Shown: in pieces, positions 31,796-49,822 of the stretch | Layout of the letters: each line of letters opens with the position of its first letter | How positions within the stretch are numbered: position 1 is the first letter of the stretch | Origin: Ensifer adhaerens | GTDB lineage: Bacteria > Pseudomonadota > Alphaproteobacteria > Rhizobiales > Rhizobiaceae | Length of the DNA stretch: 64,000 nt | Direction: 5' to 3' | Assembly: GCF_028993555.1 (NCBI RefSeq) | Contig: NZ_CP118610.1 | Coordinates: forward strand, 2,418,001-2,482,000 | Program-made: the position numbers and the translations under genes | Notes under the pieces: model-generated | The model's database searches: none | What the model was told of the DNA's origin: nothing | The model's input: the letters and a program-made list of their open reading frames with translations, nothing else

Positions 31796-31901
31796 ATCAC
31801 GATGATTTGCGTCGGGACGACCAAATCATGAACGTGATCGATTCCCTGGTGAGAGCGGAATGCGGGCGGAAAACCGCACACACTTTTCCTCATCCCGCTC
31901 T
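31796..31901. repeat. Double-hairpin intergenic repeat overlapping the rpiB 3' end
   Basis: The first hairpin has outer arms ATCAC/GTGAT and inner arms ATGATTTG/CAAATCAT (31796-31838). The second has outer arms AGAGCGG/CCGCTCT and inner GCGG-AAAA-CCGC (31852-31901). This looks like a dispersed rhizobial palindromic element. Its right edge enters the rpiB reading frame, giving the last three codons and the stop. Confidence 0.65.
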
Positions 31902-32333
31902 AACGGAGTCGAGCCGGTCGATCGCCTCGACGTTGCCGGCCGAAGGACCACCCGGATCGAATTCGGACGCAAGCCAGGTATCGACGATCGACTTTGCCAG
32001 CTCCGGCCCGATGACGCGGGCGCCCATGGTGATGATCTGGGCGTTGTTGGATTTGGCCGCACGCTCGGCCGAATAGGTGTCGTGGGTCAGCGCCGCGCGA
32101 ATGCCTGGCACCTTGTTGGCCGAAATGCAGACGCCGATGCCGGTGCCGCAGAACAGGATGCCGCGCTCGTTTTCACCGTCGACGACCGTCTGCGCCAGCT
32201 TCTGCGCGAGATCCGCATAGTAGCCGGACTGACTAAGGTCCACGACCTCCACATCGCTCCTGCCCGCCAGGTGGGCGGCGATGACATCCAGCAGGGGCTT
32301 GCCGGCGCTGTCTGCCCCGATTGCAATCTTCAT
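31890..32333 (-). CDS. rpiB: Ribose-5-phosphate isomerase B family; probable D-erythrulose-4-phosphate isomerase (EryI-like)
   Basis: A 147-residue RpiB/LacAB isomerase. [13 protein letters not shown] at the N-terminus and [22 protein letters not shown] (Cys active site near 66-75) are diagnostic. Directly downstream of a TIM paralogue and a DeoR regulator it matches the eryR-tpiB-rpiB set of rhizobial and Brucella erythritol loci. There it interconverts D-erythrulose 4-phosphate and D-erythrose 4-phosphate; this specific role is inferred from context. The ATG at 32333 is chosen over an upstream extension to 32393 that has no ribosome site. Its last residues (RAG) and stop are encoded by a palindromic repeat, an odd C-terminus. 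Confidence 0.88.
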
Positions 32334-32376
32334 GATTGTTCCTTTCCATTCTTCAGGAACTGCCGCGGCCGAAGGC

Positions 32377-33144
32377 TCAGATCGCCTTTGCAACCCGCTG
32401 CAGAATGTCGAGATAACCAGTGACGTCCCAGGCGGAGCGGCCGATGAAGAGACCGTCGATATGCGTCTCAGCGATCAGTTCTTCGCAATTGCCGGGATTG
32501 ACGCTGCCGCCGTAGAGCACCGGCACACGCCGTCCGAGTGCGGCTTCCGCCACGTCGGCGATGCGCTTGTGGCGCTCGTTCGCATAGTCCGACGTCGCCG
32601 GAATGCCGTTGACCCCGATCGCCCAGACGGGCTCATAGGCAAGCAGGATCGTCGCCGACGCCGCCTCGCCGTCGAGAAGCGCCAGCGCGCCCTCGACCTG
32701 GCGCTTCAGCACCCGATCCGCCTCACCTGCCTCGCGTTCGGCAAGCGTCTCGCCGATGCAGATCAGCGGCACCAGCCCATGGCGCACGGCAGCCGCCGTC
32801 TTCAGGCCGACGGTGCGATCCGTCTCGCCGAAATGTTCGCGACGCTCGCTGTGGCCAAGCTCGACCACATCGAGGTTGCAATCCGCAAGCATCAGCGGCG
32901 ACACCTCACCGGTCCAGGCGCCGGCATCGTCCCAATGCATGTTCTGCGCACCGACCTTGACGCTGGTTTCAGCAAGCCGCGCCTTGACCTCACGCACCGC
33001 CGTAAACGGCGGAATGACGAAGCGCTGGATGCGTTCGTCGCGCGACGCGTCGGCAGCCACAAGGCCGTCGGCAAAGGCCATCGCCTCCGCCAGCGTCTTG
33101 TTCATCTTCCAACTGGTGCCGACCCAGAGCCCGGACTTGCTCAT
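32377..33144 (-). CDS. Triose-phosphate-isomerase paralogue, probable L-erythrulose-1-phosphate isomerase (EryH/TpiB-like)
   Basis: This 255-residue TIM-barrel isomerase retains the catalytic residues: Lys in GTSWKMNKT (about 13), His in ELGHSERR (about 98) and Glu in AYEPVWAIG (about 168). A W(V)GTSWKMN N-terminus is typical of the catabolic paralogues, while glycolytic TpiA usually has GNWKMN. In erythritol pathways EryH converts L-3-tetrulose phosphate to D-erythrulose 4-phosphate. Its start overlaps the regulator stop by four bases, and rpiB follows after 43 bases. A second housekeeping tpiA is expected elsewhere. Confidence 0.85.
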
Positions 33145-33920
33145 GCTTTCTCCTTGCGACTATCGACCCTGACCAGCCGGATGCCCGCCTCTTCAAGCGG
33201 CGCGGCATGCTCCGCCGAAACTTCGGCGCCGGTCAGCACCGCGTCGAAGGCATCGAGCCCGGTCAGGAAATGGAGCGCCGAGCGCCCGAATTTGTCGTGG
33301 TCCACCAGCAGGTACTTGCGCTTCGCCGCTTTCACCATCAGGCGCTTGGCCTGCACCACCTCCTGGTCCTGGTGGAAGGCGGTCGTGCCCTCGATCGCCG
33401 AGCTCGACAGAAAGGCGATATCGACGCGCAGCGAGCGCAGCGCCTCGTCGGTAACGATGCCGAAGAAGCCGTTGAACTTCTTGCTGTACTGCCCGCCGAG
33501 CGCGATGACGTTGATGCCCGCCGCGCCCGAAAGGCCGGTGATCACGCCGAGATTGTTGGTGATGACCGTCAGCGGGCGGATGTCGCGGATGCACTCGGCG
33601 ATCGCGCCGGTCGTCGAGCTGTCGTCGATCAGGATGCTCTGCCCCGGCTCGATCAGCGAGGCCGCATGCTCGGCGATCCGCCGCTTTTCGGCGGTGGCGA
33701 TCTTCTCGCGGTAGCGGAAATCGCTTTCGAATTGCGGGCTCGACTGGATCGAGGCCCCGCCATGGACCTTGCGCAACAGACCGGCCTGCTCGAGGTCGTC
33801 GAGATCGCGATGCACGGTCATCTTGCTGACGCCGAAGCGCAGGGACAGGTCTTCGACAGAAGCGGTTCCCGCCTCCATCAGCACATCCATGATCGCCTGT
33901 CGCCTGTCTTCCGGCTTCAT
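33141..33920 (-). CDS. DeoR-family transcriptional regulator (EryR-like)
   Basis: This 259-residue protein has an N-terminal DeoR helix-turn-helix (VEDLSLRFGVSKMTVHRDLDDL, about 18-39) and a DeoRC sugar-phosphate-binding domain (about 70-235). DDSSTTGAIA and TNNLGVITGL contain the effector loop. The ATG at 33920 follows GGGACAGAG. It overlaps the isomerase gene (ATGA). The AT-rich region upstream with inverted and direct repeats is its likely operator, so it may repress its own three-gene unit separately from the SorC regulator at the other end of the locus. Confidence 0.9.
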   Translation of the reverse strand: MKPEDRRQAIMDVLMEAGTASVEDLSLRFGVSKMTVHRDLDDLEQAGLLRKVHGGASIQSSPQFESDFRYREKIATAEKRRIAEHAASLIEPGQSILIDDSSTTGAIAECIRDIRPLTVITNNLGVITGLSGAAGINVIALGGQYSKKFNGFFGIVTDEALRSLRVDIAFLSSSAIEGTTAFHQDQEVVQAKRLMVKAAKRKYLLVDHDKFGRSALHFLTGLDAFDAVLTGAEVSAEHAAPLEEAGIRLVRVDSRKEKA

Positions 33921-33966
33921 CGTCTCTGTCCCGATCACGCGCAGCCTCAGCCGCGCTCACAGTGAG

Positions 33967-34020
33967 AAGATAACACCTATTTGTGATATTTCAATTTTCC
34001 ATGTGTGATTTTGTTATCTT
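33967..34020. promoter_or_regulatory. AT-rich operator/promoter region of the DeoR-tpi-rpiB unit
   Basis: AAGATAACA (33967-33975) and TGTTATCTT (34012-34020) are perfect inverted arms 36 bases apart in a strikingly AT-rich island. A second TGTTAT follows at once, making a direct repeat. The span lies about 50-100 bases upstream of the DeoR gene and is a good operator candidate. Confidence 0.5.
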
Positions 34021-34026
34021 TTAATG

Positions 34027-34959
34027 TTATTTCTGTGAATGATTAAAACCCGTATCGATGTGGGGCTCCCAGAATTCGACGGATTCCCGGATCATCTCGA
34101 CGACGTTGTGATCGGTCGGCTCGCGCTCGCGGAAGGACAGCTCCAAGCAGATCTCGTTGTCGGTGCCGCCACCGGCCTTGACCGCGCCGATGAGCTTCTC
34201 CGGCGTGATGCGGCCGTCCCTGTTGTAGGCGGCGGTAAACGGCCAGTGGCCGCCCTTGTTCATCGACGACTGCTTGATGTGGATGATCGGCGAGCGCTCT
34301 GGGAACGCACCTGCCCAGGCATAGGGATCGATGTCGTCGGGGTTGTCGGAGGTGACGTCGCCGTGGTCGATGTCGACCATCATCTTCATCGGGATCGGCA
34401 GTCCTGCCTCGGCCAGCCGCCGGTCGAGCGCCCGGCACTCGGCGATCGTGTGACCGAATTCGCGGCCGACCGACATCGGCTCCCAGAAGACATAGGAAAG
34501 CCCCGCCGCCTTGCCGTGCTCGGCGACTTCACGCCAGCAATCGATGGCGATCCGCATCATCTCCTCACGCCGCGCGGGGTCGTCATAATCCTTCAGCGTA
34601 AAGATCGCGAACTGCGTCCCCATGCCGGAGGCGCCGAGCTCGGCGGAAATATCGGCAAAGGTCTTGAACCAGTCGACGTAGTAACGCCGCACGTCCGGGT
34701 CCGGATGGCCGAAATGGTTGAGCCGGCCATAGGGCCCGGTCATGCCCGAGGTAATCTTCACGCCGGTGCGATCCAAAGCCCTGCGAAACTGCCGGATGCT
34801 CTTGGCGATCGTCGCCGCCGGCCAGCCCGGATTGACGAATTCGTGGGTCAACTGCACGTAGCCGATGCGGATCTTCTCGGCGATCGTATCGATCAGGTCG
34901 TCAGGCTCGGCGAAGCGGTTGACCAGCGGATTGGTGTTGAGCGACAGCGTGAAGGCCAC
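34027..34959 (-). CDS. Sugar phosphate isomerase/epimerase (TIM barrel), EryC-like
   Basis: This 310-residue AP-endonuclease-2-like TIM barrel has metal ligands likely in FWEPMSVGREFG, MVDIDHGD, IIHIKQSS and CLELSFRERE. EryC proteins of erythritol loci have about 309 residues and act on tetrulose phosphates; length and context agree. A GTG start at 34959 follows GGAGTAAGG. It is the last gene of the main operon, 14 bases after the HAD gene. Another acyclic-sugar epimerase role is possible. Confidence 0.8.
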   Translation of the reverse strand: MAFTLSLNTNPLVNRFAEPDDLIDTIAEKIRIGYVQLTHEFVNPGWPAATIAKSIRQFRRALDRTGVKITSGMTGPYGRLNHFGHPDPDVRRYYVDWFKTFADISAELGASGMGTQFAIFTLKDYDDPARREEMMRIAIDCWREVAEHGKAAGLSYVFWEPMSVGREFGHTIAECRALDRRLAEAGLPIPMKMMVDIDHGDVTSDNPDDIDPYAWAGAFPERSPIIHIKQSSMNKGGHWPFTAAYNRDGRITPEKLIGAVKAGGGTDNEICLELSFREREPTDHNVVEMIRESVEFWEPHIDTGFNHSQK

Positions 34960-34973
34960 GACCTTACTCCCGG

Positions 34974-35819
34974 CTACCAGAGAAATTTCGGAAGGATGAA
35001 GTCGGGGCTGGCGCCATGTTCGGCAAAAAGCTTGCGGCGCTCCTCATCCGAGGCATGATCGAGTATCCCGGTCGTCACCAGCACGGAATGAAGCCCGGCG
35101 CTTGCTGCACCTGCGATATCGTGCTCGATGCTGTCACCGATCGCACAGACCCGTGCCGGGTCGGGGTGACCGAGGAAATCGAGGGCCGCGGCATAGATGT
35201 CGGCGAAGGGCTTGCCGATCCAGCGCACCCGGCCGCCAAGTTCCTCGTAAAGTTCGGCGATGCGGCCGGCACCGAACGCGGTCCCCGTCTTCGTCAGCAT
35301 CACCTTGTCCGGATTGGTGCAGAGGCAGGGAATGCCGCGCTTGGCCGCCGGCGCCAAAAGCGCCTCGTAGTGGGAAAGCGGATGAACGTCACCCTCGCTC
35401 GCCGAGAGCAGCACGACATCGGCATCCGCGCCGCTGCCGGTGCGCTCAAGATCAAGCCCCTTGATTGGCGAGAGATCATTGTCGCGACTGATCAGCAGGC
35501 ACCGGCGCGGCGTGCCTGTGCTGCCTGCATCGTCTCGTTTGAGGATCTGCCAGGCGACCTCGCCCGAGGTCAGGAACCAGTCCCAGCTGCCGGCGGCAAA
35601 GCCGATGTCGACAAGGCGGCGGTCGTTCTCCGCCGAGCGTTTTCCCGAATTGGACAGGATGACGATGCGCTTTCCGGCATCCTTCAGCCGCACCAGCGTT
35701 TCGGCCGCCCCCGGATAGGGCCCGCGCCCGTCGCGCAGCACGCCGAACTGGTCGATCAGGAAGGCGTCGTAACGGTCGGCGATCGCGCCAAGCCCGGCGA
35801 TGGTTTCGAGACCGGTCAC
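34974..35819 (-). CDS. HAD-superfamily hydrolase, subfamily IIA (TIGR01459-like)
   Basis: This 281-residue protein has the class IIA HAD layout: a nucleophile strand AFLIDQFGVLRDG (about 19-31), ILSNSGKRS (motif II), a C2 cap, and GDSIEHDIAGA (motif IV, near 236-246). Motif I has Asp-Gln-Phe where most HADs have Asp-x-Asp, so the usual acid/base residue is missing; this appears in the TIGR01459 family. It could dephosphorylate a small sugar phosphate or have a non-phosphatase role. It overlaps the kinase gene by four bases, so it belongs to the polyol operon. Confidence 0.8.
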   Translation of the reverse strand: MTGLETIAGLGAIADRYDAFLIDQFGVLRDGRGPYPGAAETLVRLKDAGKRIVILSNSGKRSAENDRRLVDIGFAAGSWDWFLTSGEVAWQILKRDDAGSTGTPRRCLLISRDNDLSPIKGLDLERTGSGADADVVLLSASEGDVHPLSHYEALLAPAAKRGIPCLCTNPDKVMLTKTGTAFGAGRIAELYEELGGRVRWIGKPFADIYAAALDFLGHPDPARVCAIGDSIEHDIAGAASAGLHSVLVTTGILDHASDEERRKLFAEHGASPDFILPKFLW

Positions 35820-37102
35820 AGCACACCTGCCTTCCTGGCACCGGCGAGCGCAAGCCGCGCCGTGCCGGCGGCAGCCTCTTCGGAGAGAACCGACAACAAT
35901 GGCACCCCGAGTTTGCGAGCACGGATCGCCGTCCAGGCGGCATTCTTGGCGCCGCCGCCGACGCTGCGCAGCGAACGGAGCGGCGGGCCGCCAAGTGCCG
36001 TCAGCCGCTGATAGGCAAGGCTCTCGACCCCGGCAATACCTTCGAAAATCGCCTTCAGGAAAGTGGCATCATCGGCCGGCCGCGGGCTCATGCGTGGCGG
36101 ATAGTCCGGATCGGAGATCGGAAATCGCTCACCGGGTTTGATGAGCGGATAATAGTCGAGCCCAGCATCGACAGCCGGATCGATCTCCTCCGACAGTGCT
36201 GCGATCCGCTCTGGCGAAAAATGTTCGGCAAGAACCACGCCGCCCGTGTTCGAAGCCCCACCCGCAAGCCACATCTCACCGATGCGATGGCTATAGAGCC
36301 CGTATTCCGGGGCAAACAGCGGTCGGTCGGAAAGCAGCTTCACCGTGAGCGTCGTGCCCAGCGCGCTGACACCGTCACCCGGCTGCTCCGCCCCCGTTGC
36401 GAGAAACGAGGCGCACCCGTCCGTGGTGCCGGCAACGATCACCACATCGCCGGAAAGGCCGAAGGCTTCGGCCGCGGCCGGGCTGATCGTGGCGACCGGC
36501 GCACCGGCGGGCAGCACGTTCGGCAGCAGATCGACACGCGCGCCCGTCTTCTCGATCCAGTCTGGCCAGGACCGCGTTACCGGATCGTAGCCGGTCTTCA
36601 ACGCGTTGTTTTCATCGGAGACATCGTAAAGCCCGCTGAAATGACCGGCGAGCCAATCCGCCTGATGGATCACGCGAAACGCACCCGGCACCATCTGGAA
36701 GACGAGAAATTTTGCAAGGCCGGATGTCGCACCATGCGCAGCGCTTTCGCGCGGCGCATGAGCAGAGACGGCATCGAGGAGCGCGCGGTCGGCAACCGGA
36801 TCATTGTACATCATCGGTGTCGCCAGCGGCGCGCCGTTTTGATCGACCGGCAGCGTCGTGCCGGAAGTGCCATCGACCGCGACTGCTGCAACGTTCCGCC
36901 TGTCGATGCTCCCGAGCGTTTCCTCGAGGGCGGCCTGCACCGCCTTCCACCAGCCGATGGGATCGCGGTGATCCGCGGAGAAGGACGAGAGTTTCGCCGC
37001 GCCAGATGCGACCGCACGCCCATCCGCAGCCATAGCAACCGCCCGTGCACCCGAGGTACCGATGTCAATGCCAATAACAAGTTTGCGATCGTCACCGCTC
37101 AT
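35816..37102 (-). CDS. FGGY-family carbohydrate kinase (second kinase of the locus)
   Basis: This 428-residue FGGY kinase has the N-terminal phosphate loop GIDIGTSGARAVAM (about 10-23), GTSGTTLPVD near 89 and the C-terminal ATP-binding SVGGGAKNAAW near 390. The length is short for the family (usually 480-520). It phosphorylates a sugar or polyol, perhaps a ketose handed to the aldolase encoded directly upstream. Its ATG at 37102 overlaps the aldolase stop (ATGA). It is not closely similar to the EryA-like kinase at 41418, so the two probably act on different substrates. Confidence 0.87.
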   Translation of the reverse strand: MSGDDRKLVIGIDIGTSGARAVAMAADGRAVASGAAKLSSFSADHRDPIGWWKAVQAALEETLGSIDRRNVAAVAVDGTSGTTLPVDQNGAPLATPMMYNDPVADRALLDAVSAHAPRESAAHGATSGLAKFLVFQMVPGAFRVIHQADWLAGHFSGLYDVSDENNALKTGYDPVTRSWPDWIEKTGARVDLLPNVLPAGAPVATISPAAAEAFGLSGDVVIVAGTTDGCASFLATGAEQPGDGVSALGTTLTVKLLSDRPLFAPEYGLYSHRIGEMWLAGGASNTGGVVLAEHFSPERIAALSEEIDPAVDAGLDYYPLIKPGERFPISDPDYPPRMSPRPADDATFLKAIFEGIAGVESLAYQRLTALGGPPLRSLRSVGGGAKNAAWTAIRARKLGVPLLSVLSEEAAAGTARLALAGARKAGVL

Positions 37103-38151
37103 TGCAGCACCTGTCCGGCGCGGTTGAGCTGCTGGCGGTACTTCTCCGCATCCCAGCCGAGAAGTTCCGCGTTTTCGGCTTCCGTCAGGTAGCGCAGCCG
37201 CGCGTCCGCCGGAATGCGCGCTGTCACGTCGGCGAGGCACCGCGCCATCGCGAGGGCGCCGGCGGAAATCTCCTTCTGTACCAGCACGCCCTTGCCGGGG
37301 AAAAGCAAGAGAGGAGACAGGCTCTCGCCGGCCGCGCGCCGCTTCTCCTCGATCGACAAGGCAGTCTCTCCGGGAGCAGCGACCACGACGCCCTTGCCGA
37401 GAAAAATCACATGATCGGGATAGAGGCTGCCGCCGGCCGCAAGCCGGCAACTGTCGAGATCAGCGGCAACCGTGTGCAGGCAAGCATCTTCCGGCAGCCG
37501 ATAGTCGCTATCGACAGCAAGCCGCGAAAGCGCGGCGAGATCGGCCGTCGGCGCTTGCCGCCGCTGCCCGGTCAGGCGGCGCGTGATGTCGGTCAAAAGG
37601 ATCGACGCATCCGCAACAGTTTCTGCGGCGACGACGAGGCCATGGTTGCCGAGGACCAGCACTGACGTATTGTCCTGCAGCCGCTCGGCTATCGCCCTGG
37701 CAAGCGGCAATCCCGGCCGAGCATAGGGCACGAAGACATGTGGATAGCCGGCAAGCCGCTCGGCGGCGATTGCGGCACCATTGGTCTGGACTGCAGCCGC
37801 GATCGTTTCAACGCAATGGACGTGAACGATGACCCTCTGCGGCATCAGCGCATGCACCGTCGTCTCGATCGAGGGACGCAAACCGGACGGGTTCTGCGCG
37901 GCGATGACGAAATCCTGCGCCTTCTCCGTTGCCGGATCACCGCGCTCCAGCGCATCGAGCAACGGATCGAGCGCCACAGGCACCATCACGTCGCGCTGGC
38001 GGGCATGGGCGAGCCACAGGCCCGAGGCCTTGATCCAGAGCGCCCCGCCCTCCTTGATCGAGGTGTTGCCGCCCGCCCCCTGCACCAGCAGCGGGTCGGC
38101 CCCGACGCGGGCCGAAAGATCGAGAAGCGCTTCGAATTCCAGGCTTCGCAT
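37099..38151 (-). CDS. Class II aldolase/adducin-family protein, long form
   Basis: This 350-residue protein has the class II aldolase fold at the N-terminus: QGAGGNTSIKEGG (phosphate loop, about 29-41), HVHCVETIA (two metal His, about 115) and GNHGLVVA (third His). The length is well above FucA (about 215) and near the aldolase half of bifunctional aldolase/short-chain dehydrogenases such as RhaEW, with no dehydrogenase domain here. It would split a ketose 1-phosphate to dihydroxyacetone phosphate and an aldehyde. The ATG at 38151 is fixed by AAGGAG six bases upstream. Confidence 0.82.
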   Translation of the reverse strand: MRSLEFEALLDLSARVGADPLLVQGAGGNTSIKEGGALWIKASGLWLAHARQRDVMVPVALDPLLDALERGDPATEKAQDFVIAAQNPSGLRPSIETTVHALMPQRVIVHVHCVETIAAAVQTNGAAIAAERLAGYPHVFVPYARPGLPLARAIAERLQDNTSVLVLGNHGLVVAAETVADASILLTDITRRLTGQRRQAPTADLAALSRLAVDSDYRLPEDACLHTVAADLDSCRLAAGGSLYPDHVIFLGKGVVVAAPGETALSIEEKRRAAGESLSPLLLFPGKGVLVQKEISAGALAMARCLADVTARIPADARLRYLTEAENAELLGWDAEKYRQQLNRAGQVLQ

Positions 38152-38162: not shown

Positions 38163-39707
38163 TCAAGCGGCCGCCTGCTGGCGTTCAAGCCAGTGAGTAA
38201 AGGCCTGCCGTTCAGCCGGCGTCATGTGCAGACCATGCTTTGTCCGGCGGTCGAGAATGTCGTCCGCCGTCAGCGCCCATTCGTTTTCGATGAGGAAACG
38301 CGCTTCGCGTTCGCGCAAATGCGGACCGAAAGCCGGCCCGAGATCGTCGAGCGATCCCGCTCCGGAAAGCAACGCATGCGCCCTGGTGCCATAGAGCCGC
38401 GCATAGTGCTTGACGAGATCGGTCGGCAGAAAGCGGTAGCGCGCCTTGAGATCACCCAGGAACTGCTCGAAATCGGCATCCGCCATGTCACCACCCGGCA
38501 GGTGCGCCGAAGCCGTCCAGGCCGGCCCCATCTTGGGGAAAAAGGGCTTCAAACGCTCCAGCGCGTGTTCGGAAAGCTTGCGGAAGGTGGTGATCTTGCC
38601 GCCGAAGACCGAGAGCAGCGGCGCCTGGCCATCGGCCGCATCGACCTCGAAAATGTAGTCGCGGGTGACTGCCGAAGGGTTCTCGGCATTGTCGTCGTAG
38701 AGCGGACGCACGCCGGAGAAGCTGTAGACAATATCGTCAGACGTAAGCTGCTGCTTGAAGTAGCGATTCACCGATTTCAGCAGATAGGCGATCTCGTTGT
38801 CATCGGCGACCACATCCTCCGGCCGCCCCTCATAGGGGATATCCGTGGTGCCGATCAGCGCCAGGTCGTTCTGGTAGGGATTGATGAAGATCACCCGCTT
38901 GTCCGGGTTCTGCACCAGATAGGCCTGTCGCCCCTCCCAGAATTTCGGCACGACGATGTGGCTGCCCTTGACCAGGCGCACGCTACGGCTGGAGTTCAGC
39001 CCGCCGATCCGGCCGATGACGTCGTTGACCCAGGGACCGGCGGTGTTGACGACGCACCGCGCCTTCACCTCGGTCTTCACGCCGGTGCGCGTATCGGTCA
39101 TCTCGATATGCCAGAGCCCGTCCCGCCGGCGGATCGCGCTGCAGGCGGTGCGGGTCAGTACCCGGGCGCCGCAGGCGCGGGCGTCAAGTGCATTCAGGAC
39201 GACGAGGCGTGCGTCATCCACCCAACAGTCGGAATATTCGAACGCCTTGCGGTATTCGCGCTTGATCGGCGCGCCCTCCGGCGCGGTCGAAAGGTCGAGG
39301 CTGCGCGTCCCCGGCAGGCGCTTGCGTCCGCCGAGATGGTCGTAGAGGAAGAGCCCTAGACGCACGAGCCAGGCCGGCCGATCTTCAGGGTTATGCGGCA
39401 GCACGAAACGCATCGGCCAGATGATGTGCGGCGCGGAGTTGAGCAACACTTCACGCTCGATCAGCGCCTCGCGCACCAGGCGAAACTCGTAGTACTCGAG
39501 GTATCGCAGGCCGCCATGCACCAGCTTGCCCGAGCGCGAACTCGTCCCCTGGGCCAGATCGTCTTTCTCGCACAAGAGAACCGAGAGCCCTCGCCCGGCG
39601 GCGTCGCGCGCGATGCCCGCGCCATTGACGCCGCCGCCGACGATGAACAGATCATATACTCCGGTCTCGGAACTCAACGCTGTCGCTCCTGTCGCCATCG
39701 CAGCCAT
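38163..39707 (-). CDS. FAD-dependent glycerol-3-phosphate dehydrogenase family (GlpD/EryB-like)
   Basis: This 514-residue flavoprotein has FAD motif VGGGVNGAGIARDAAGRG (about 23-40), GTSSRSGKLVHGGLRYLE (about 54-71) and GVRPLYDD in the catalytic region, all GlpD family hallmarks. It oxidises a polyol phosphate and passes electrons to quinone at the membrane. EryB, the erythritol-4-phosphate dehydrogenase, is a member; because this gene sits with EryA-, EryC- and EryD-like genes, that role is plausible. It begins three bases after the stop of the short aldolase. Confidence 0.9.
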   Translation of the reverse strand: MAAMATGATALSSETGVYDLFIVGGGVNGAGIARDAAGRGLSVLLCEKDDLAQGTSSRSGKLVHGGLRYLEYYEFRLVREALIEREVLLNSAPHIIWPMRFVLPHNPEDRPAWLVRLGLFLYDHLGGRKRLPGTRSLDLSTAPEGAPIKREYRKAFEYSDCWVDDARLVVLNALDARACGARVLTRTACSAIRRRDGLWHIEMTDTRTGVKTEVKARCVVNTAGPWVNDVIGRIGGLNSSRSVRLVKGSHIVVPKFWEGRQAYLVQNPDKRVIFINPYQNDLALIGTTDIPYEGRPEDVVADDNEIAYLLKSVNRYFKQQLTSDDIVYSFSGVRPLYDDNAENPSAVTRDYIFEVDAADGQAPLLSVFGGKITTFRKLSEHALERLKPFFPKMGPAWTASAHLPGGDMADADFEQFLGDLKARYRFLPTDLVKHYARLYGTRAHALLSGAGSLDDLGPAFGPHLREREARFLIENEWALTADDILDRRTKHGLHMTPAERQAFTHWLERQQAAA

Positions 39708-39710: not shown

Positions 39711-40373
39711 TCACGCCGCCTTCGTCTTGTCCTGCAGGCCATAGGTGGAGAAGGCCTCGATCACACCGGATATCTCGGCCTCCGACAGGATCACCGGGCC
39801 GCCGATCAGTAGCGTGTGATAATATTGCTTGGCGATCGTCTCGAGCTCGACCGCTGCCCACATCGCCTTCTCCAGGCTGGCGCCCGTTGCAATCATGCCG
39901 TGGTTCGCCATCAGGCAGGCGGTCCGGCCGTCGAGCGCCCTGAGCACGCTTTCGGAAAGCGCCTTGGTGCCGTAGCGCTCGTAGTCGGCGACGCGCACGT
40001 CACTGCCGCCGAAGGCCGCGATCATGTAATGGCAGGCCGGGATCGGCTTGCGGGCGATCGCCAGGATGGTCGAATACATCGCGTGGGTGTGCACGACCGC
40101 GCCGACTTCCGGTCGTGCCCGCAGGATATCCAGGTGGAACGGCCATTCGACCGAGGGTTTCTTCGGACCATCCCAGGCGCCGTATTCGCCGTCGATCGGC
40201 ATGGCGACGATCATGTCCGCCGTCATCTCGCCATAGGGGATGCCCGAGGGCGTCACCAGCATGGTGTCGCCGTGGCGCAGGCTGATGTTGCCCGAGGTGC
40301 CCTGGTTGAGCCCGATGGCGTTCATGTGACGGCAATGGTCGACGATCGACTGGCGCAGTTCGCGTTCGCTCAT
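39711..40373 (-). CDS. Class II aldolase, L-fuculose-phosphate-aldolase-like
   Basis: This 220-residue protein matches the size of FucA. LNQGTSGNISLR (about 21-32) and TPSGIPYGEM form the phosphate site, SVEWPFH carries the catalytic Glu, and HTHAMYS and ANHGMIATG give the zinc His ligands. It cleaves a ketose 1-phosphate to dihydroxyacetone phosphate and a short aldehyde, or decarboxylates a 3-oxo-tetronate phosphate as OtnC does; the first is likelier from the motifs. The ATG at 40373 follows GAGGTG. Confidence 0.87.
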   Translation of the reverse strand: MSERELRQSIVDHCRHMNAIGLNQGTSGNISLRHGDTMLVTPSGIPYGEMTADMIVAMPIDGEYGAWDGPKKPSVEWPFHLDILRARPEVGAVVHTHAMYSTILAIARKPIPACHYMIAAFGGSDVRVADYERYGTKALSESVLRALDGRTACLMANHGMIATGASLEKAMWAAVELETIAKQYYHTLLIGGPVILSEAEISGVIEAFSTYGLQDKTKAA

Positions 40374-42995: not shown

Positions 42996-44119
42996 CAGGC
43001 AAGCTCCTGTCCATGGCTGATCGCCCGGCCGCTCTCGCCGTCAAAGACATGCAGGCTCGACGGATCGAGATGAATGCCGATCGGCTGGCCGACATCAAGC
43101 TCGGTGCGATCATGCTCGACCAGCACCATTGTCCCACCGGCAAAATCCGCCGCGATATGGGTCTGGTCGCCGAGCCACTGGTTGACGGCGACGCGGCCGG
43201 TCACGCCGTCGGCGCTGCGGCGCACCGAATAGGGACGGATACCGAGCACGACCTTCTGCCGCTTTACCAACGCATCGCGCACCGCATGCGAAAAATCGGA
43301 AGCCGGATATTCGAGCCGCACGCCATCCTTGAGGCCGAAGGCGACCTTGCTCTCCGAGCCGGAAACGCTGGCCTCGAAGACATTCATCGGCGGCTCGCCG
43401 ACAAAGGTTCCGGTGAACAGATTGGCCGGCCGTTCCTTGATCTTCTGCGGCGTATCGAACTGCTGCAGCACACCGCCTTCCATGACGGCAATACGGTCGG
43501 CAAGCGCGTTGGCTTCCGTCTGGTCATGGGTGACGAGGATCGCCGTCAGCCCGCGCTCCTTGATGTAATGCTTGATGCGGCCTCGAAGCAGCGCGCGCAG
43601 CTGAGGCTCGAGCTGCCCCATCGGCTCGTCCAGCAGATGCAGGTTGGCATCGCGGATCAGCGCCCGGCCGAGCGAGGCGCGCTGCTGCTGCCCGCCGGAA
43701 ATCGAGCTCGGGTAGCGCCCGAGAATGTCCTCGATTTCGAGCAGCTTGGCGATGCCCGCCACCTTCTCGTCGACGACGGCTTGCGAGAGCTTCGAGGCCT
43801 TGAGAGCGAAGGCAATGTTCTCGCGCACGGTCAGCGGCGGATAGAGCGAATAGCCCTCGAACGCCATGGCGACGTTGCGGCGCACAGGCGGCAGGGTGTG
43901 GACCGCTTTGGCTGCAAGCGAGATCGTGCCGCGCGAGACCGCCTCGAAGCCGGCGATCATGCGCAGCGTCGAGGTCTTGCCGCAGCCGGAGGAGCCGAGC
44001 AGTGCGATGATCTCACCCTTCCTGACATCCATGTTCAGCTTCTTCACGGCATGCACGCCGTAATCGACGGGGCCGTAGAACTTGTCGACGTCCTTGATCA
44101 AAAGAGCGGTGTCGGTCAT
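42995..44119 (-). CDS. ABC transporter ATPase B of the polyol importer
   Basis: This 374-residue MalK-type ATPase has Walker A GSSGCGKTS (about 42-50), signature ISGGQQQR, Walker B LHLLDEP and H-switch VTHDQTEA, all competent. The Q-loop reads FEGYSLYPP, with Glu in place of the usual Gln. A TOBE-containing C-terminal domain follows. It overlaps the partner ATPase by four bases and the kinase by one. With the other ATPase it probably forms a heterodimer, as in the rhizobial glycerol importer GlpST. Confidence 0.9.
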   Translation of the reverse strand: MTDTALLIKDVDKFYGPVDYGVHAVKKLNMDVRKGEIIALLGSSGCGKTSTLRMIAGFEAVSRGTISLAAKAVHTLPPVRRNVAMAFEGYSLYPPLTVRENIAFALKASKLSQAVVDEKVAGIAKLLEIEDILGRYPSSISGGQQQRASLGRALIRDANLHLLDEPMGQLEPQLRALLRGRIKHYIKERGLTAILVTHDQTEANALADRIAVMEGGVLQQFDTPQKIKERPANLFTGTFVGEPPMNVFEASVSGSESKVAFGLKDGVRLEYPASDFSHAVRDALVKRQKVVLGIRPYSVRRSADGVTGRVAVNQWLGDQTHIAADFAGGTMVLVEHDRTELDVGQPIGIHLDPSSLHVFDGESGRAISHGQELA

Positions 44120-45234
44120 GCCGCTTCTCCATTGCGCTTGGCTGCGATGTCGGCGCGCGGCAGCAAGGTGCCGCTCGTCTTGTCGAAGAGAAAGGCCTGG
44201 CTGCCATTCACGGCAATATGGGCAGGTCCCGTGGTCGGACCAGGCGTTCCGGCCGGTCGCGACACCAGGATTTCACGGCCACGGGCGGTGAGCGCCAGCG
44301 TCACGGTTTTCTCGTTGAGTGGGGTCTCCGCCTCCACCGTCACGGGAATTGCGCCTGACACTGCGGCATCGACAAAGCTGATCGCCTCCGGGCGCAGGCC
44401 GAGCACGCACGGACTGCCGACGACATCGGCGCCGTAATCGGCCAGCCGCACCCGGACATTCGACAGTTCGACGAAGACACCCTCGCCGCCGCGCTGCGGC
44501 GTAACCTCGAGCAGGTTTATGGTCGGATCACCGAAGAGCCGTGCGATCTCGATATCGGCCGGCGCGTTGTAGATTTCCTGCGGTGTGCCGATCTGGCGGA
44601 TGCGGCCGGCCGCCATCACCGCGATCCGGTCGCCGAGCGCCATCGCTTCCTTGTAGTCCTGCGTGACGTAGACGACGGTGGCGCCTTGCGCTGCAAGCAA
44701 CCGCGGCAGTTCCAGCCGCATCTCGAAGCGCAGCTTGGCATCGACGTTGCGCAAGGGATCGTCGAGGAGAAGCAGTGGCGGCGAGCCGACGAGCGCGCGG
44801 GCAAGTGCCGTGCGCTGCTTCTGGCCGTTCGACAGCGCCTTCGGGTGATGCGTCAGCACGTGGTCGATCTTGAGGAGCTTCGCGACCTTCTGCACGCCCG
44901 CCGCGATCTTCTCCTTCGACGATCGCGTTGCCGTCAAGGGGCTCGCGATGTTGTCGAAAGCGCTCATGTGCGGGAAGAGCGCGAAGTTCTGGAAGGCCAT
45001 GCCGACACCGCGGTGCTCGGCATCGACATCGGTCATGTCTTCGCCGCCGATCAGCACCCGGCCCTCGTCCGGCTCGATGACGCCGGCCACCAGCCGGAGC
45101 AGCACGGTCTTGCCGGCGCCCGACGGGCCGAAGAGCACCAGACGCTCGCCATCGGCGACGTCGAGCATCAGGTCGTCGAGAACCGTCTGGCTCTTGTAGC
45201 GCTTGACGATGTTCTTCAGTTGCAGCGTGGTCAT
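44116..45234 (-). CDS. ABC transporter ATPase A of the polyol importer, degenerate catalytic motifs
   Basis: This 372-residue MalK-type ATPase has an intact Walker A (GPSGAGKTV, about 36-44) and Q-loop (FQNFALFPH). The signature is LSNGQKQR instead of LSGGQ, Walker B ends in Asp (LLLLDDP) where the catalytic Glu should be, and the H-switch is VTQDYKEA with Gln for His. It is therefore probably a non-hydrolysing partner of the second ATPase. It begins three bases after the permease stop and overlaps ATPase B. The same kind of asymmetry is seen in GlpS of glycerol importers. Confidence 0.9.
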   Translation of the reverse strand: MTTLQLKNIVKRYKSQTVLDDLMLDVADGERLVLFGPSGAGKTVLLRLVAGVIEPDEGRVLIGGEDMTDVDAEHRGVGMAFQNFALFPHMSAFDNIASPLTATRSSKEKIAAGVQKVAKLLKIDHVLTHHPKALSNGQKQRTALARALVGSPPLLLLDDPLRNVDAKLRFEMRLELPRLLAAQGATVVYVTQDYKEAMALGDRIAVMAAGRIRQIGTPQEIYNAPADIEIARLFGDPTINLLEVTPQRGGEGVFVELSNVRVRLADYGADVVGSPCVLGLRPEAISFVDAAVSGAIPVTVEAETPLNEKTVTLALTARGREILVSRPAGTPGPTTGPAHIAVNGSQAFLFDKTSGTLLPRADIAAKRNGEAA

Positions 45235-45237
45235 GAG

Positions 45238-46095
45238 TTACCCTTTCACCGCGCCGAGCGACAGGCCTTCGACGAGGTAGCGCTGGGCGTAGAGTGCAAG
45301 TGCGAGCGTCGGCGTGACCGAAAGCACGATGGCGGCCGCAATCTGTCCGTACTGGATGCCCGAGGAGGTGACGAAGGCGAGCGCGCCGACCGTCACCGGC
45401 TGCTTGTCGGCAGATGCCAGCACCAGCGCGAAGACGAAGTTGTTCCAGGCAAAGATGAAGGCGAGCAGACCGGCAGCGGCAATGCCGGGCCCGGCAAGCG
45501 GCAGCGCGATCTTGCGGAAGGTCGCAAACCAGGAATGGCCGGCGATGCGATAGGCATATTCAACGTCGGCGGAGATGTCCTCGAAGTAGCCGCGCACGAT
45601 CCAGAGGATCAGCGGCAGGCAGATCAGCTGGTAGACCCAGATCAGGCCGAAGTAGGTGTTGGAGAGGCCGAGCCACTGGAAATACTGCGTCAGCGGCAGC
45701 AGAACCAGCAGCGGCGGCGCGAAGCGGAAGGAAAGCAGCGTGAATGCGATGTCTTCCGATCCCTTGAACTTGTGGCGGGCAAAGGCATAGGCCGCGGGCA
45801 CACCGAGCACCAGCGACACCGCAACCGACGCCACCGAGAGGAAGATCGAGTTGCCGAGATTGCGCATGAAGGCGATGTCGAGCGTACCGGCCGCCGTCTG
45901 CAGCTTGCCGGTGATCAGCGCCGCATAGTTCGAAAGCGTCGGTGAGAACACGACAGACGGCGGGATCGCCAGGATCGTCTCATTCGTCTGGAACGACATC
46001 AGGAAGATCCAGAAGATCGGGAACATGAAGAAGACGACGACCAGCGTGAGGGCGAGACCGCGTAAGATCCGTTCGAGCGGAGACATGGTTTCCAT
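45238..46095 (-). CDS. Polyol/sugar ABC transporter permease (MalG type)
   Basis: A 285-residue permease with about six helices and an EAA-type loop DVEYAYRIAGHSWFATFRKIALPLAGPG near the C-terminal third. The ATG at 46095 follows AAGGGAGGGA; an upstream extension into the other permease gene is rejected. It pairs with the permease encoded 11 bases upstream. Confidence 0.9.
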   Translation of the reverse strand: METMSPLERILRGLALTLVVVFFMFPIFWIFLMSFQTNETILAIPPSVVFSPTLSNYAALITGKLQTAAGTLDIAFMRNLGNSIFLSVASVAVSLVLGVPAAYAFARHKFKGSEDIAFTLLSFRFAPPLLVLLPLTQYFQWLGLSNTYFGLIWVYQLICLPLILWIVRGYFEDISADVEYAYRIAGHSWFATFRKIALPLAGPGIAAAGLLAFIFAWNNFVFALVLASADKQPVTVGALAFVTSSGIQYGQIAAAIVLSVTPTLALALYAQRYLVEGLSLGAVKG

Positions 46096-46106
46096 TGGTC
46101 CCTCCC

Positions 46107-47030
46107 TTAAGCTTCGCCGCGAGCGCGTTCGCGCAGCCGCAGCCAGTTCTTGATGAAGACGTTGGACAGCGTGTAGGTGATCGCCCACAGGATGATCAGC
46201 AGTGCCGCCGACCGGCCGACATTGGTCGACTGGAAGAAGTTGAGATAGGCCTCGACCTGGAAGACGGTGAGCGTGTTGCCGGGTCCGCCCTGCGTCATCG
46301 CGTAGATGATGTCGAACTGCTGGATGCTGTCGAGCAGCCGGAAGAGCGTCGCCGTCAGGATATAGGGCGTCAGCATCGGCAGGGTGATGCGGAAGAACAC
46401 GAAGCTGCGCGGCACGCCGTCAAGGGCTGCGGCCTCGAAAGGCTGCGTCGGCAGCGAACGCAGGCCGGCCAGAAGCAGGATCATGATGAACGGCGTGTAG
46501 ACCCAGATGTCGACGAGGACGACGGTCAAGAGTGCCGTGTCCGGCGAGGACGCCCAGCGGAAATCATGCAGCCCGATCAGGCTCGCGAGATAGCTGAGGA
46601 TGCCGAAGCTCGGATTGGTCATCAGCTTCCACATGAGCGCGGCCAGCGCCGGCGCGATCATCAGCGGCAGGAGCAGCATGATCGAGATGAAGTTGTTGAC
46701 CGTCGAGCGCCGCTGCAACAAGAGCGCGATGCCGAGACCGAGCAGCAATTCCAGCGTCACGGTAATGCCGGCATAAAGCAGCGATACCTTCAGCGTGTTC
46801 CAGAAGGCCGGGTCGGTGAAGAAGTTGAGGTAGTTTTCGCCCCAGTTGAACTGGCGGCTCCAGGGCTGGCTCAGCCGGTAGCGCTGGAAGGAATAGATCA
46901 CCGCCGTGAAGAACGGGATGAGGATGCCGATGCACACAAGCAGCGCCGGCAGGCTCAGCACGTAAGGAAGCATCTTCCTGCTGATCCTGAAACCGGAGGC
47001 CGGTCTGCGAAGGGTTTCTGTTGAAGCCAT
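46107..47030 (-). CDS. Polyol/sugar ABC transporter permease (MalF type)
   Basis: A 307-residue permease with six to seven helices and the EAA loop FEAAALDGVPRSFVFFRITLPMLTP near residues 192-216. It is the first membrane subunit after the binding protein and begins about 185 bases downstream of it, beyond a stable hairpin. It forms the channel with the next gene's product. Confidence 0.9.
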   Translation of the reverse strand: MASTETLRRPASGFRISRKMLPYVLSLPALLVCIGILIPFFTAVIYSFQRYRLSQPWSRQFNWGENYLNFFTDPAFWNTLKVSLLYAGITVTLELLLGLGIALLLQRRSTVNNFISIMLLLPLMIAPALAALMWKLMTNPSFGILSYLASLIGLHDFRWASSPDTALLTVVLVDIWVYTPFIMILLLAGLRSLPTQPFEAAALDGVPRSFVFFRITLPMLTPYILTATLFRLLDSIQQFDIIYAMTQGGPGNTLTVFQVEAYLNFFQSTNVGRSAALLIILWAITYTLSNVFIKNWLRLRERARGEA

Positions 47031-47172: not shown

Positions 47173-47200
47173 ATGCCCGGCGCTCGCAAGCGCCGGGCAT
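47173..47200 (-). other. Stable intercistronic hairpin after the polyol binding-protein gene
   Basis: Twelve-base perfect arms ATGCCCGGCGCT/AGCGCCGGGCAT with a CGCA loop lie 15 bases beyond the binding-protein stop, with no T-run. The likely role is to stabilise the upstream message or reduce readthrough into the permeases. Confidence 0.75.
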
Positions 47201-47215
47201 CGCTTGGGAGGCCTA

Positions 47216-48658
47216 TCAGCCGAGACCCGCCTCTTGGAGCTGGCGGTTGATGCTTTCTGCAAGCTGGTCGAGCCCTTCATCGATAGGCACCTGCTTGGCG
47301 ACCATCTTCTGCAGCGTCGCCGCCCATTCGGTGGTGACGTCGAAGAACAGCGGCTGCGGTGTGAACTTGATGGAGGCGCCGGCGGCCGAGGCGTCGAACA
47401 TTTCGACATAGCCCGGATACTTGCCGTTCAGCTTCTCGCGGAAGATCTCGTCCTTCCAGATCGACTGGCGAACCGGATCGACGAAGTCCATCTTGGTGGC
47501 ACCGAACAGCGCATGTTCCGGACCGGAAGCCCACTGCAGGAAGTACCAGGTGGCGTCCTTGTCCTTGGAGAAGTTGGACATGGCCAGCGACCAGATCCAG
47601 ATGTTCGGCGTCGAGGCCGTCGCCTCCGGGTTGGCGGCAAAGGCGGCATAGCCGAGCTTGCCGGCCATTTTGTTGTCGCCGCCGTTCATGAAGTAGCCTA
47701 GGCAATCGGCGTCGAAGATCATGGCCGATGCACCGGCGCCAAGGTCGGTGCCGACCTGGTACCAGGTATAGGTCGACCAATCCTTCGGACCGCTTTCCTG
47801 GATCATCTGCACGAACTTGGCGTGATAGGCCTTGGATTCGGCGGTGTTCATCGCCGCTGAAAGCTTGCCGTCGGCGCCGACGTTCAGATCCTTCTGGTTG
47901 AAGTTGGCGTAGCCCGACAGGAAGCCCGGATGGATCGTCGCCCAGGAGCGCGAGCCGCGCACACCGATGCCGTAGATGCCGCCGATGTCCTTCTGCAACT
48001 TGGCTGCAACCGAAATCATGTCGTCGAGGTTCTTCGGCAATTCGACGCCGGCCTTGTCGAACATCTCGCGGTTATAGGTGATGTTGTTCTGTTCGAACGC
48101 CCACGGAATGCACCATTGCTTGGCATCCGCCGAACCGAGTGCTCCGCCCGGCTGGCCGTTCCAGGCGCAGGAGTTCTTCACGCCTGCGAGGAAATCGTCC
48201 CAGTTGTAGTTGGGGTTGGTCTTGGTCGGGTCCTTGATCCATTCGTTGAGGTCGGCAATCCAGCCGGCCGGACCATAGGTCCAGGTCATGTAGGCACCGG
48301 TCATGAAGGCGTCGTATTCGGCCGAGCCGGACGAGAGCGCCGCGGTCACCTTGTCGAAATAGACATCTTCCGGGAACACGTCATAGGTGACCTCGATGCC
48401 GGTCAGGTCCTTGAAGGCCTGCAGGTTGGCGATCATCGCGTCAGCGTAAGGGTGCTTGTTCAAAAGCAGCTTCAGCGACTTTCCGGAATGCGCCTTCCAG
48501 TCGAAATCGGCGGCGAGCGCCCGGGTCGACATCATGTTGAACAACGTGCCGGCCGTGCCGGCCGTCAAGCCTGCCGCGCCCAATCCCTTGAGCATGCCGC
48601 GGCGGTCCACCTCCCCACGCAGGAATGCGCTGATGAGGTCCTTCTCCTTCTCGTACAT
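47216..48658 (-). CDS. Polyol/sugar ABC transporter substrate-binding protein, Tat-type leader
   Basis: This 480-residue family 1 solute-binding protein has a twin-arginine leader (DRRGMLKGLGAAGLTAG, residues about 18-34) with cleavage near ALAAD. Tat export of a folded binding protein is common in rhizobia. The mature domain has the EYDAFMTGAYMTWTYGPAGW-like ligand lobe and many Trp residues usual for sugar and polyol binding. It is the first structural gene of the importer, 118 bases after the SorC regulator. The Sec route cannot be ruled out. Confidence 0.9.
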   Translation of the reverse strand: MYEKEKDLISAFLRGEVDRRGMLKGLGAAGLTAGTAGTLFNMMSTRALAADFDWKAHSGKSLKLLLNKHPYADAMIANLQAFKDLTGIEVTYDVFPEDVYFDKVTAALSSGSAEYDAFMTGAYMTWTYGPAGWIADLNEWIKDPTKTNPNYNWDDFLAGVKNSCAWNGQPGGALGSADAKQWCIPWAFEQNNITYNREMFDKAGVELPKNLDDMISVAAKLQKDIGGIYGIGVRGSRSWATIHPGFLSGYANFNQKDLNVGADGKLSAAMNTAESKAYHAKFVQMIQESGPKDWSTYTWYQVGTDLGAGASAMIFDADCLGYFMNGGDNKMAGKLGYAAFAANPEATASTPNIWIWSLAMSNFSKDKDATWYFLQWASGPEHALFGATKMDFVDPVRQSIWKDEIFREKLNGKYPGYVEMFDASAAGASIKFTPQPLFFDVTTEWAATLQKMVAKQVPIDEGLDQLAESINRQLQEAGLG

Positions 48659-48775
48659 TCGTCTTCTCCTCCGTTGCGGGTATGATTGCGACTGCCGGCT
48701 ACCCCACCGGTATTCCTCCCTTTGGAGCAGACGGCAGATCCTCCCTGCCCTCCCATGCCCCGAATTCTCAGCGCC

Positions 48776-49741
48776 TCATGCGCCGTCCGCGGCAAGCGCC
48801 CGCGCAGTCCGCTCGTCGGTGATGAGCCCGCTCAAATGCCCGCTGGCGAGCACGGCGCGAATGGCCGGCACCTTGATCTTGCCGCCGGCAACGGCGACCG
48901 TGCGGCGGTTCTTCAGGTCGTCGCGGCTGAGCGTGAAGGTTCGGTCCGACAGCGCGGTCTCTACCGGCCGGCCGTTCTCGTCGAAGAAATGTCCGAGCAG
49001 TTCGCCCATCGCCCCGCCCTTCTGGATTTCCTCGATCTCGCTCATTTCGATCATGCCGGTCGAGACCAGCGACGCCTCGCGCTCGACGGTGCCGATGCCG
49101 ACCATCAGCAGGTCGGCGGTCTTGGCGAGATCGAAGACCTCGCGCACGCCGCGCTGGCTGAAGAGCACGTCGCGATCCTCGACGGTGTTGGCGAAGAACG
49201 GCACCGGCATGACATAGGCCTCTGCTCCCGTGCGCTCGGCGAGCCGGTGGATCACGTCATGCGGGTTGGCCGAGAACTTGCGGGTAAGACCGCCGAGCAG
49301 CGAGACGAAGCGGGTGTTGCCGCTCGCCATGCGCGGCAGATATTCGACGCAGGCCGCAAGCGTCCGGCCATGGCCGACGCCGACCAGCGCCGTCTCGCCG
49401 CGTTCGATCTCGCGCTTCAGGAACTGCGCGCCGGAGATGCCGAGCGCCTTCAACGGCAGCTCGTCGGAATCGAAGTCCGGCACCACCTCGCAATAGTCGA
49501 GGCCATAGCGCGCCGAAAGCGCCTGTTCGAGCTCGACGCATTCGGAGACTTCGCCGTCGATATAGACCTTCACCAACCCTTCCTGGTTGGCCTTCATGAT
49601 CAGCCGGTGAGCCTTGAGCGAGGTGAGGCCCAGGCGCTTGGCAACCTCCGCCTGGGTCAGGCCTCCGGCATAATGCAGCCAGGCCGCCCGCGTCGCCATG
49701 CTGGTCTCGTCGTCACGAATGCCTGTCCCACCAATCGTCAT
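48776..49741 (-). CDS. SorC/DeoR-family sugar-binding regulator, EryD-like
   Basis: This 321-residue protein has a short N-terminal helix-turn-helix (GGLTQAEVAKRLGLTSLKAHRLI, about 27-49) and a SorC effector domain (about 65-320; GVGHGRTLAACVEYLP and VGIGTVE). ATRAAWLHYAGGLTQ and RYGLDYCEVVP closely resemble EryD, the erythritol-operon regulator of Brucella and rhizobia. It stands first in the 15-gene same-strand series and likely controls it. The ATG at 49741 follows GGGTGGAGA and is preferred over an extension to 49822, which would run through the promoter repeats. Confidence 0.9.
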   Translation of the reverse strand: MTIGGTGIRDDETSMATRAAWLHYAGGLTQAEVAKRLGLTSLKAHRLIMKANQEGLVKVYIDGEVSECVELEQALSARYGLDYCEVVPDFDSDELPLKALGISGAQFLKREIERGETALVGVGHGRTLAACVEYLPRMASGNTRFVSLLGGLTRKFSANPHDVIHRLAERTGAEAYVMPVPFFANTVEDRDVLFSQRGVREVFDLAKTADLLMVGIGTVEREASLVSTGMIEMSEIEEIQKGGAMGELLGHFFDENGRPVETALSDRTFTLSRDDLKNRRTVAVAGGKIKVPAIRAVLASGHLSGLITDERTARALAADGA

Positions 49742-49767
49742 TGTCTCCACCCGGCTTTGTTGCGTTG

Positions 49768-49822
49768 CATGATATTTTTTGCAGCGCGTGATATTTTTAT
49801 CCGTTGATGAAAGAAATTTCAT
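49768..49822. promoter_or_regulatory. Operator-like repeats upstream of the SorC regulator
   Basis: Two direct repeats CATGATATTTTT (49768-49779) and CGTGATATTTTT (49787-49798) are 19 bases apart, and a palindrome ATGAAA-GAAA-TTTCAT spans 49807-49822. Two-turn spacing of direct repeats suits a multimeric SorC regulator. Confidence 0.5.

Follow-up and report, generated by a model that had tools for sequence, protein, structure and literature searches.

A probable Ensifer orthologue of the Sinorhizobium meliloti erythritol, adonitol and L-arabitol locus, with a tentative route for its pentitol branch

Described polyol loci and the Ensifer locus

The described system closest to the locus analysed here is the Sinorhizobium meliloti locus for erythritol, adonitol (ribitol) and L-arabitol, in which the gene order is eryD mptABCDE eryA rbtA fucA1 eryB lalA rbtB rbtC eryC eryR tpiB rpiB (PMC3599248). 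Geddes et al. 2013 (PMC3599248) count 17 genes each in the S. meliloti and S. medicae loci and credit the genetics of the S. meliloti locus to Geddes and Oresnik 2012. According to the same paper, all three polyols are imported by MptABCDE and accepted by EryA in S. meliloti, lalA-rbtABC are involved in the use of the pentitols and not of erythritol, and fucA is unnecessary for any of the three. MptABCDE is likewise given as carrying erythritol, ribitol and L-arabitol in PMC10433430, where D-arabitol is printed in one place. A literature search on the C5 chemistry gave only these two papers that, judged by title, bear on the locus. We analysed a stretch of 64,000 nucleotides from Ensifer adhaerens (contig NZ_CP118610.1, positions 2,418,001 to 2,482,000; hereafter the window), in which 17 long open reading frames (ORFs), all on the minus strand, occupy 31890-49822. 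Judging from its sequence, this locus is almost certainly the Ensifer orthologue of the S. meliloti locus. The gene set is already known and not new, and its substrates in this strain are probably erythritol, ribitol (adonitol) and L-arabitol; the chemistry of the C5 branch is the remaining question of interest.

The window proteins were compared with nine stretches from a plasmid collection. S. meliloti Ak57 (L005) carries all 17 genes with the order kept, at 74-96% identity per matching piece, and in S. meliloti 4H41 (L037) and S. medicae (L034) the full set of 17 is present with order and strand unchanged. In the genes compared, the window locus differs from the S. meliloti and S. medicae loci in sequence divergence only. 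What tells against this identity is that three L005 genes, those for the binding protein, one of the permeases and the HAD protein, each match in two pieces that lie in different stretches and are unannotated; L005 is not a clean copy, whereas L037 is. The Ak57 record is 3.72 Mb long and labelled pSymB, yet in our judgement it is chromosome-sized. In S. fredii NGR234 the locus on pNGR234b (L012) keeps the gene order but has only 16 of the 17 genes; fucA is missing, as PMC3599248 also states, and no gene stands in its place between rbtA and eryB. That paper prints cut-offs for eleven of these proteins, with queries from Rm1021 and R. leguminosarum. The window identities to L005 lie above the cut-off for all eleven, L005 being Ak57 and the queries coming from other strains. 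For LalA, RbtA, RbtB and RbtC (names assigned below) the identities to Ak57 are 79, 89, 75 and 74-82% against Rm1021-based cut-offs of 49, 50, 51 and 40%.

A preliminary description of this DNA had counted 17 genes on one strand, which the ORF listing bears out. It had also held that no described pathway has exactly this set, and this is wrong since the S. meliloti 17-gene locus is published (PMC3599248). The outcome that it had itself named as refuting, a known operon for a single polyol that takes in all the genes, is in substance what was found, with three polyols. The match of all 17 genes to the S. meliloti locus led us to reject a new polyol pathway.

A second described type is the Brucella/R. 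leguminosarum ery locus, eryABCD-eryR-tpiB-rpiB with eryEFG. The EryA, EryB, EryC, EryD, EryR, TpiB and RpiB positions are 49-75% identical in the R. johnstonii ery locus (L008). Compared with this type, the window has LalA, RbtA-C and FucA1 as five additional enzymes, and its importer is of the MalFGK type. Its five transport genes resemble the MalK/UgpC, MalG, UgpA and sorbitol-binding families. An importer of the MptABCDE type is present, and the binding protein and permeases of the window had no match in the L008 stretch. The ribose-type importer EryEFG is not in the locus, a finding that does not extend to the remainder of the genome. These results support the earlier view of an enlarged locus of the erythritol type in which a MalFGK-type importer replaces EryEFG, and the accompanying proposal that the added enzymes serve a second, C5, polyol is supported by the published use of ribitol and L-arabitol by S. 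meliloti (PMC3599248). The Bradyrhizobium-type pentitol locus, known here from that paper as its class 3, has the same importer type, EryA, EryB, LalA and RbtABC, and a similar layout is seen in L105 (below). This type is without eryC-eryR-tpiB, whereas the window has all three.

Family searches (NCBIfam and Pfam) and comparisons with solved structures agree with the gene families named in the preliminary description. The families present are an RpiB-type D-erythrulose-4-phosphate isomerase, a TpiA-type protein, a DeoR regulator, a HAD-IIA protein (TIGR01459), a short FGGY kinase, a class II aldolase-type protein of 355 amino acids (aa), a GlpD-type protein, a FucA-type aldolase, a D-2-hydroxyacid dehydrogenase, an FGGY kinase, two MalK/UgpC-like ATPases, two permeases, a binding protein and an LsrR/SorC-type regulator. 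NCBIfam gave RbtA, LalA and RbtB no specific enzyme name above cut-off, and the NCBIfam match of RbtC was only a model without stated function. The EryC-like protein had almost no NCBIfam match and was identified by its 70% identity to the EryC position of L008.

Spread of the gene set and assignment of names

Genome contigs were scanned with an alignment of five RbtA proteins. This gave 247 stretches with a relative, of which the best 80 were kept; the closest named relative of the window RbtA among these is that of Ensifer sp. Root278, with 98% identity. The counts over the 80 loci hold for RbtA-bearing loci, with matches of at least 38% identity and loci that reach up to 10 kb on either side, some of them shorter. 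The comparison of gene order and the search for the 17-gene set that had been suggested earlier could thus be made, and all 17 genes are in the same order in 9 of the 80 loci, while only fucA is missing in a further 10. Thus the gene set is beyond chance. Gene by gene, RbtA is present in 80, EryA in 78, EryB in 73, EryC in 65, LalA in 60, RbtB in 53, RbtC in 52 and FucA in 32 loci.

For a view independent of RbtA, single proteins were searched in 297 genomes of the order, the host genome included; the best 5-8 first-look candidates per genome were scored, E-value cut-offs differ between the searches, and the genome set is taken to be the same in each. RbtB was found in 28 genomes, RbtA in 15, EryC in 23 and LalA in 34. 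The RbtA-bearing genomes have RbtB in 14 of 15 cases, LalA also in 14 and EryC in 9; Fisher tests of these co-occurrences take no account of kinship. HAD-family matches of RbtC occur in 120 of the 297 genomes at a loose cut-off, so their presence alone is weakly informative; of the 28 genomes with RbtB, however, 26 have a RbtC-type gene no more than 1.5 kb from it, and in 20 the two are immediate neighbours.

The names of four of the enzymes are inferred. The list of cut-offs in PMC3599248 runs EryA, RbtA, EryB, LalA, RbtB, RbtC, EryC, which is the gene order here with fucA between RbtA and EryB. Read in this order, the 2-hydroxyacid dehydrogenase would correspond to RbtA, the 355-aa protein to LalA, the short kinase to RbtB and the HAD-IIA protein to RbtC. 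In Mesorhizobium and related loci the 2-hydroxyacid dehydrogenase is kept beside EryA. The 355-aa aldolase-type gene occurs without the short kinase and the HAD gene in seven loci (L069, L071, L072, L074, L088, L089 and L092), which agrees with the statement on M. loti LalA in PMC3599248 and therefore points to the 355-aa protein as LalA. Other Mesorhizobium and related loci have, within the fetched stretches, all three genes (e.g. L063) or none (e.g. L066).

Gene context was read in eight stretches, and Pfam searches covered 26 neighbouring genes selected from these and from L099 and L101. L105 has EryA, RbtA, EryB, LalA, RbtB, RbtC and FucA; EryC, EryH and EryI are not in that stretch, and its genome gave no EryC match. 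L106 has 14 of the 17 genes (no match to FucA, DeoR or EryI), with EryC and EryH on the opposite strand, and L107 has only EryA, RbtA and FucA together. In L108, RbtB-RbtC-LalA lie near an FGGY kinase, a protein like NAD-dependent glycerol-3-phosphate dehydrogenase and an iron-ADH_2 protein, with no match to RbtA or EryB. A zinc alcohol dehydrogenase adjoins LalA-RbtB-RbtC-EryC in L103, and in L102 and L104 LalA, RbtB and RbtC are near other importer genes. The 11.5-kb L109 holds RbtB and a partial LalA, with no dehydrogenase among the five of its eight other ORFs that were scanned. The Shinella locus L006 has EryA-RbtA-FucA, and a 66% identical EryB-like gene is elsewhere on the same plasmid. 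At L099:6502-11723 a RbtA-FucA pair is accompanied by a SorC-type regulator and by two kinases, one FGGY and one PfkB-like. A Peripla_BP_4 binding protein also accompanies the pair in L099, and the stretch gave no match to LalA, RbtB or EryA of at least 38%.

Erythritol route and pentitol branch

Erythritol would most likely be converted by EryA, EryB, EryC, EryH and EryI, in five steps, to erythrose-4-phosphate; a revised five-step route is described in PMC5468441. NCBIfam names the RpiB-type gene of the window D-erythrulose-4-phosphate isomerase, and in PMC10733421 EryC is D-erythrulose 1-phosphate 3-epimerase and DerI is D-erythrulose 4-phosphate isomerase. The older end product, dihydroxyacetone phosphate (DHAP), is still given in PMC3599248.

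For the pentitols we tentatively propose a route through EryA, EryB or RbtA, LalA, RbtC and RbtB to D-ribulose-5-phosphate, which as a whole is possible rather than probable. EryA would phosphorylate one end of the pentitol and EryB or RbtA would oxidise the neighbouring carbon to give a 3R ketopentose-1-phosphate. If the 3R geometry of D-erythrulose-1-phosphate is followed, this would be D-ribulose-1-phosphate from ribitol and L-xylulose-1-phosphate from L-arabitol. These two compounds are C4 epimers, and LalA, whose superfamily includes the C4-epimerase AraD, would interconvert them. RbtC would remove the C1 phosphate and RbtB would make D-ribulose-5-phosphate. FucA1, whose E. coli counterpart acts on D-ribulose-1-phosphate, would provide an optional cleavage of the same ketopentose-1-phosphates to DHAP. 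Should LalA prove to epimerise L-xylulose-1-phosphate and D-ribulose-1-phosphate and RbtA to oxidise polyol phosphates, new reactions would be added to two large families, and 1-phosphates would be the way by which pentitols reach the pentose phosphate pathway.

RbtB matches AtXK-1 (7e-93) and SePSK (5e-92) about equally and far above other FGGY kinases, the chains being told apart by their molecule names. Among five sugars the ATP turnover of SePSK was highest with D-ribulose, to which AtXK-1 responded little (PMC4880283), and by analogy D-ribulose is a plausible substrate of RbtB. The position of RbtC beside RbtB fits a phosphatase that would supply D-ribulose to the kinase, which is possible. 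FucA and RhaD make D-erythrulose-1-phosphate, which EryC converts (PMC10733421), and therefore FucA1 fits the same 3R series. An earlier suggestion given in that paper is that such an aldolase cleaves erythrulose-1-phosphate in S. meliloti, but fucA is not needed according to PMC3599248.

Several points weigh against the proposed pentitol route. The RbtA family normally acts on 2-hydroxyacids. RbtC is without the second motif-I aspartate that is a feature of usual HAD phosphatases; motif I reads DQFGV or DQYGV in 50 of the 51 proteins examined, the 51st being unmatched by the pattern, and RbtC therefore need not follow the usual phosphatase chemistry. Among PDB entries AtXK-1 ranks marginally ahead of SePSK as the match of RbtB, and this slightly lowers the probability of the full reading of the branch as an unworked pathway, in which a polyol kinase, RbtA as polyol-phosphate dehydrogenase, LalA as C4-epimerase on ketopentose-1-phosphates and RbtC-RbtB moving the phosphate from C1 to C5 act together; we regard that reading as rather doubtful. 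Of the 28 genomes with RbtB, 14 have no RbtA, a sign that LalA, RbtB and RbtC may also work with other entry enzymes. The chemistry of LalA, RbtA, RbtB and RbtC is an inference, and the assignment of names to genes is built on gene order, gene losses and the cut-offs of PMC3599248. The idea that RbtA is the sole possible oxidiser of the EryA product was dropped. In four genomes or records that have RbtA but few of the other genes, the best EryB matches are 66% in the Shinella plasmid, 69% in the L101 genome, 54% in the L099 genome and 49% in the L107 genome (G197), and of these four only the L099 and L107 genomes could lack a true EryB, which is weak evidence.

Instead of being epimerised, the pentitol phosphates may be split by aldolases, LalA, like FucA1, cleaving pentulose-1-phosphates to DHAP and glycolaldehyde and RbtA handling the C2 product. 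This is rather unlikely. In its favour, the class II motifs PSIE and HVH are in 60 of 60 LalA proteins and NHG is in 58, and kinase-RbtA-FucA mini-loci are found in Shinella L006 and in L107. With an AlphaFold2 model of LalA (mean predicted local distance difference test score 91, from a 30-sequence alignment), Foldseek ranked class II aldolases first (3m4r, then FucA 2opi) and also gave oxygenases and other uses of the fold. These mixed matches cannot separate aldolase from epimerase, so choosing between the two by fold was dropped. Against the aldolase reading, cleavage would leave the linked RbtB-RbtC pair (26 of 28 genomes) without a role, epimerases are in the same superfamily, and fucA is reported to be dispensable (PMC3599248). 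For the same reason the kinase-aldolase branch to DHAP that the preliminary description had suggested is retained at most as a side branch for FucA1.

That the extra genes serve mainly another compound, a branched or acid sugar of the apiose/apionate type, with the pentitol phenotype of S. meliloti incidental, is improbable. A 2-hydroxyacid dehydrogenase does hint at a carboxylate, and the company of the RbtA-FucA pair in L099, an FGGY kinase, what we read from its protein as a PfkB-like kinase and a Peripla_BP_4 protein, indicates that the pair is used with other substrates. The resemblance of RbtB to SePSK argues the other way, and an apionate-type acid pathway was ranked low on this kinase and on the published pentitol role. 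That the locus serves erythritol only and carries the other genes as decaying passengers is hardly credible. The frequent absence of fucA, present in 32 of 80 loci, would fit such decay, but 51 of the 80 have all three of LalA, RbtB and RbtC, and L105 keeps EryA, EryB, RbtA, LalA, RbtB and RbtC without EryC, EryH and EryI.

Gene list, junctions and neighbouring genes

The host genome is 7.77 Mb in four contigs and Ensifer-like. EryC has a single match in it and EryA one close copy, its other six matches being at most 31% identical; a paralogous second ery locus was rejected since the EryA and EryC searches gave none. The genes are listed in Table 1.

Table 1. Genes of the polyol locus, with positions in the window (percentages are identities; L005, S. 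meliloti Ak57; L008, R. johnstonii ery locus; L012, NGR234)
Gene	Product	Position	Strand	Evidence
rpiB (eryI)	RpiB-type D-erythrulose-4-phosphate isomerase	31890..32333	-	NCBIfam equivalog NF051858 above cut-off; Shine-Dalgarno-like start; 88% to L005
tpiB/eryH	triose-phosphate-isomerase-like, probable tetrulose-phosphate isomerase	32377..33144	-	NF000722; 83% to L005, 75% to L008
eryR	DeoR-family regulator	33141..33938	-	start 33938 or 33920; 85% to L005
eryC	TIM-barrel epimerase	34027..34959	-	88% to L005, 70% to L008; sole genome match
rbtC (putative name)	HAD-IIA (TIGR01459), motif I DQFGV, possible sugar-phosphate phosphatase	34974..35819	-	74 and 82% to two L005 pieces
rbtB (putative name)	short FGGY kinase, AtXK-1/SePSK-like, possible D-ribulokinase	35816..37102	-	PDB 5htr 7e-93, 5htn 5e-92, next family 2.5e-13; 75% to L005
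lalA (putative name)	class II aldolase/epimerase-fold protein	37099..38151	-	motifs, AlphaFold2 model, Foldseek; 79% to L005
eryB	GlpD-like polyol-phosphate dehydrogenase	38163..39707	-	family match; 85% to L005, 66% to L008
fucA1	FucA-type class II aldolase	39711..40373	-	family match, locus comparison; absent from L012
rbtA (putative name)	D-2-hydroxyacid-dehydrogenase-family protein	40384..41421	-	family and structure matches; 89% to L005
eryA	FGGY polyol kinase	41418..42995	-	family and structure matches; 81% to L005, 54% to L008
mptD or mptE	importer ATPase	42995..44119	-	family match; 90% to L005
mptD or mptE	importer ATPase	44116..45234	-	family match; 84% to L005
mptB or mptC	importer permease	45238..46095	-	family match; 86 and 96% to two L005 pieces, 96% to L012
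mptB or mptC	importer permease	46107..47030	-	family match; 92% to L005
mptA	polyol-binding protein	47216..48658	-	distant match to 4rya, a sorbitol-binding protein; L005 in two pieces (87 and 77%), L012 85%
eryD	SorC/LsrR-type regulator	48776..49741	-	start revised from 49822; 88% to L005

Gene starts were picked by a Shine-Dalgarno-like sequence or as the first ATG, and the junctions were then computed by hand. With these starts, 6 of the 16 junctions are overlaps of 1-4 bases, another 6 leave 3-14 bases between neighbouring genes and the remaining 4 leave more, so that 12 of 16 are within 14 bases; a TTG start for LalA would raise the number of overlaps to 7. It was therefore an overstatement that most of the genes are coupled by overlaps of 1-4 bases. 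The long gaps are tpiB-rpiB (43 bases), eryC-eryR (88 or 106), eryD-binding protein (117) and binding protein-first permease (185). The start of eryD is more likely 49741 than 49822 because the S. meliloti annotation has the shorter protein. A promoter scan gave 3 sites against 3.2 expected and a terminator scan gave 7 against 12.4 expected.

A RibH2-type lumazine synthase gene (29463-29990, plus strand) is convergent with the locus at its 3' end, from which it is separated by an LtrA-like gene. RibH2-like genes are in 29 of the 80 fetched loci, in 25 of the 29 on the opposite strand and 1.7-2.0 kb past rpiB; a plasmid-borne ery locus of Klebsiella (L010) also has one, placed between eryC and eryD, and a Gemmobacter locus (L009) has another at its start. 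The substrate of lumazine synthase is a deoxy-tetrulose phosphate, and therefore a link of RibH2 to tetritol metabolism is possible. In the available part of PMC2828483, on Brucella RibH2, no mention of erythritol was found. On the other side of the locus, upstream of eryD, are a LuxR-type regulator and, adjoining it, an ABC (ATP-binding cassette) transporter operon that is annotated as spermidine/putrescine type in S. meliloti (49974-50777, minus strand, and 50880-53275, plus strand). The LuxR-type regulator is upstream of eryD in several Ensifer/Sinorhizobium loci as well.

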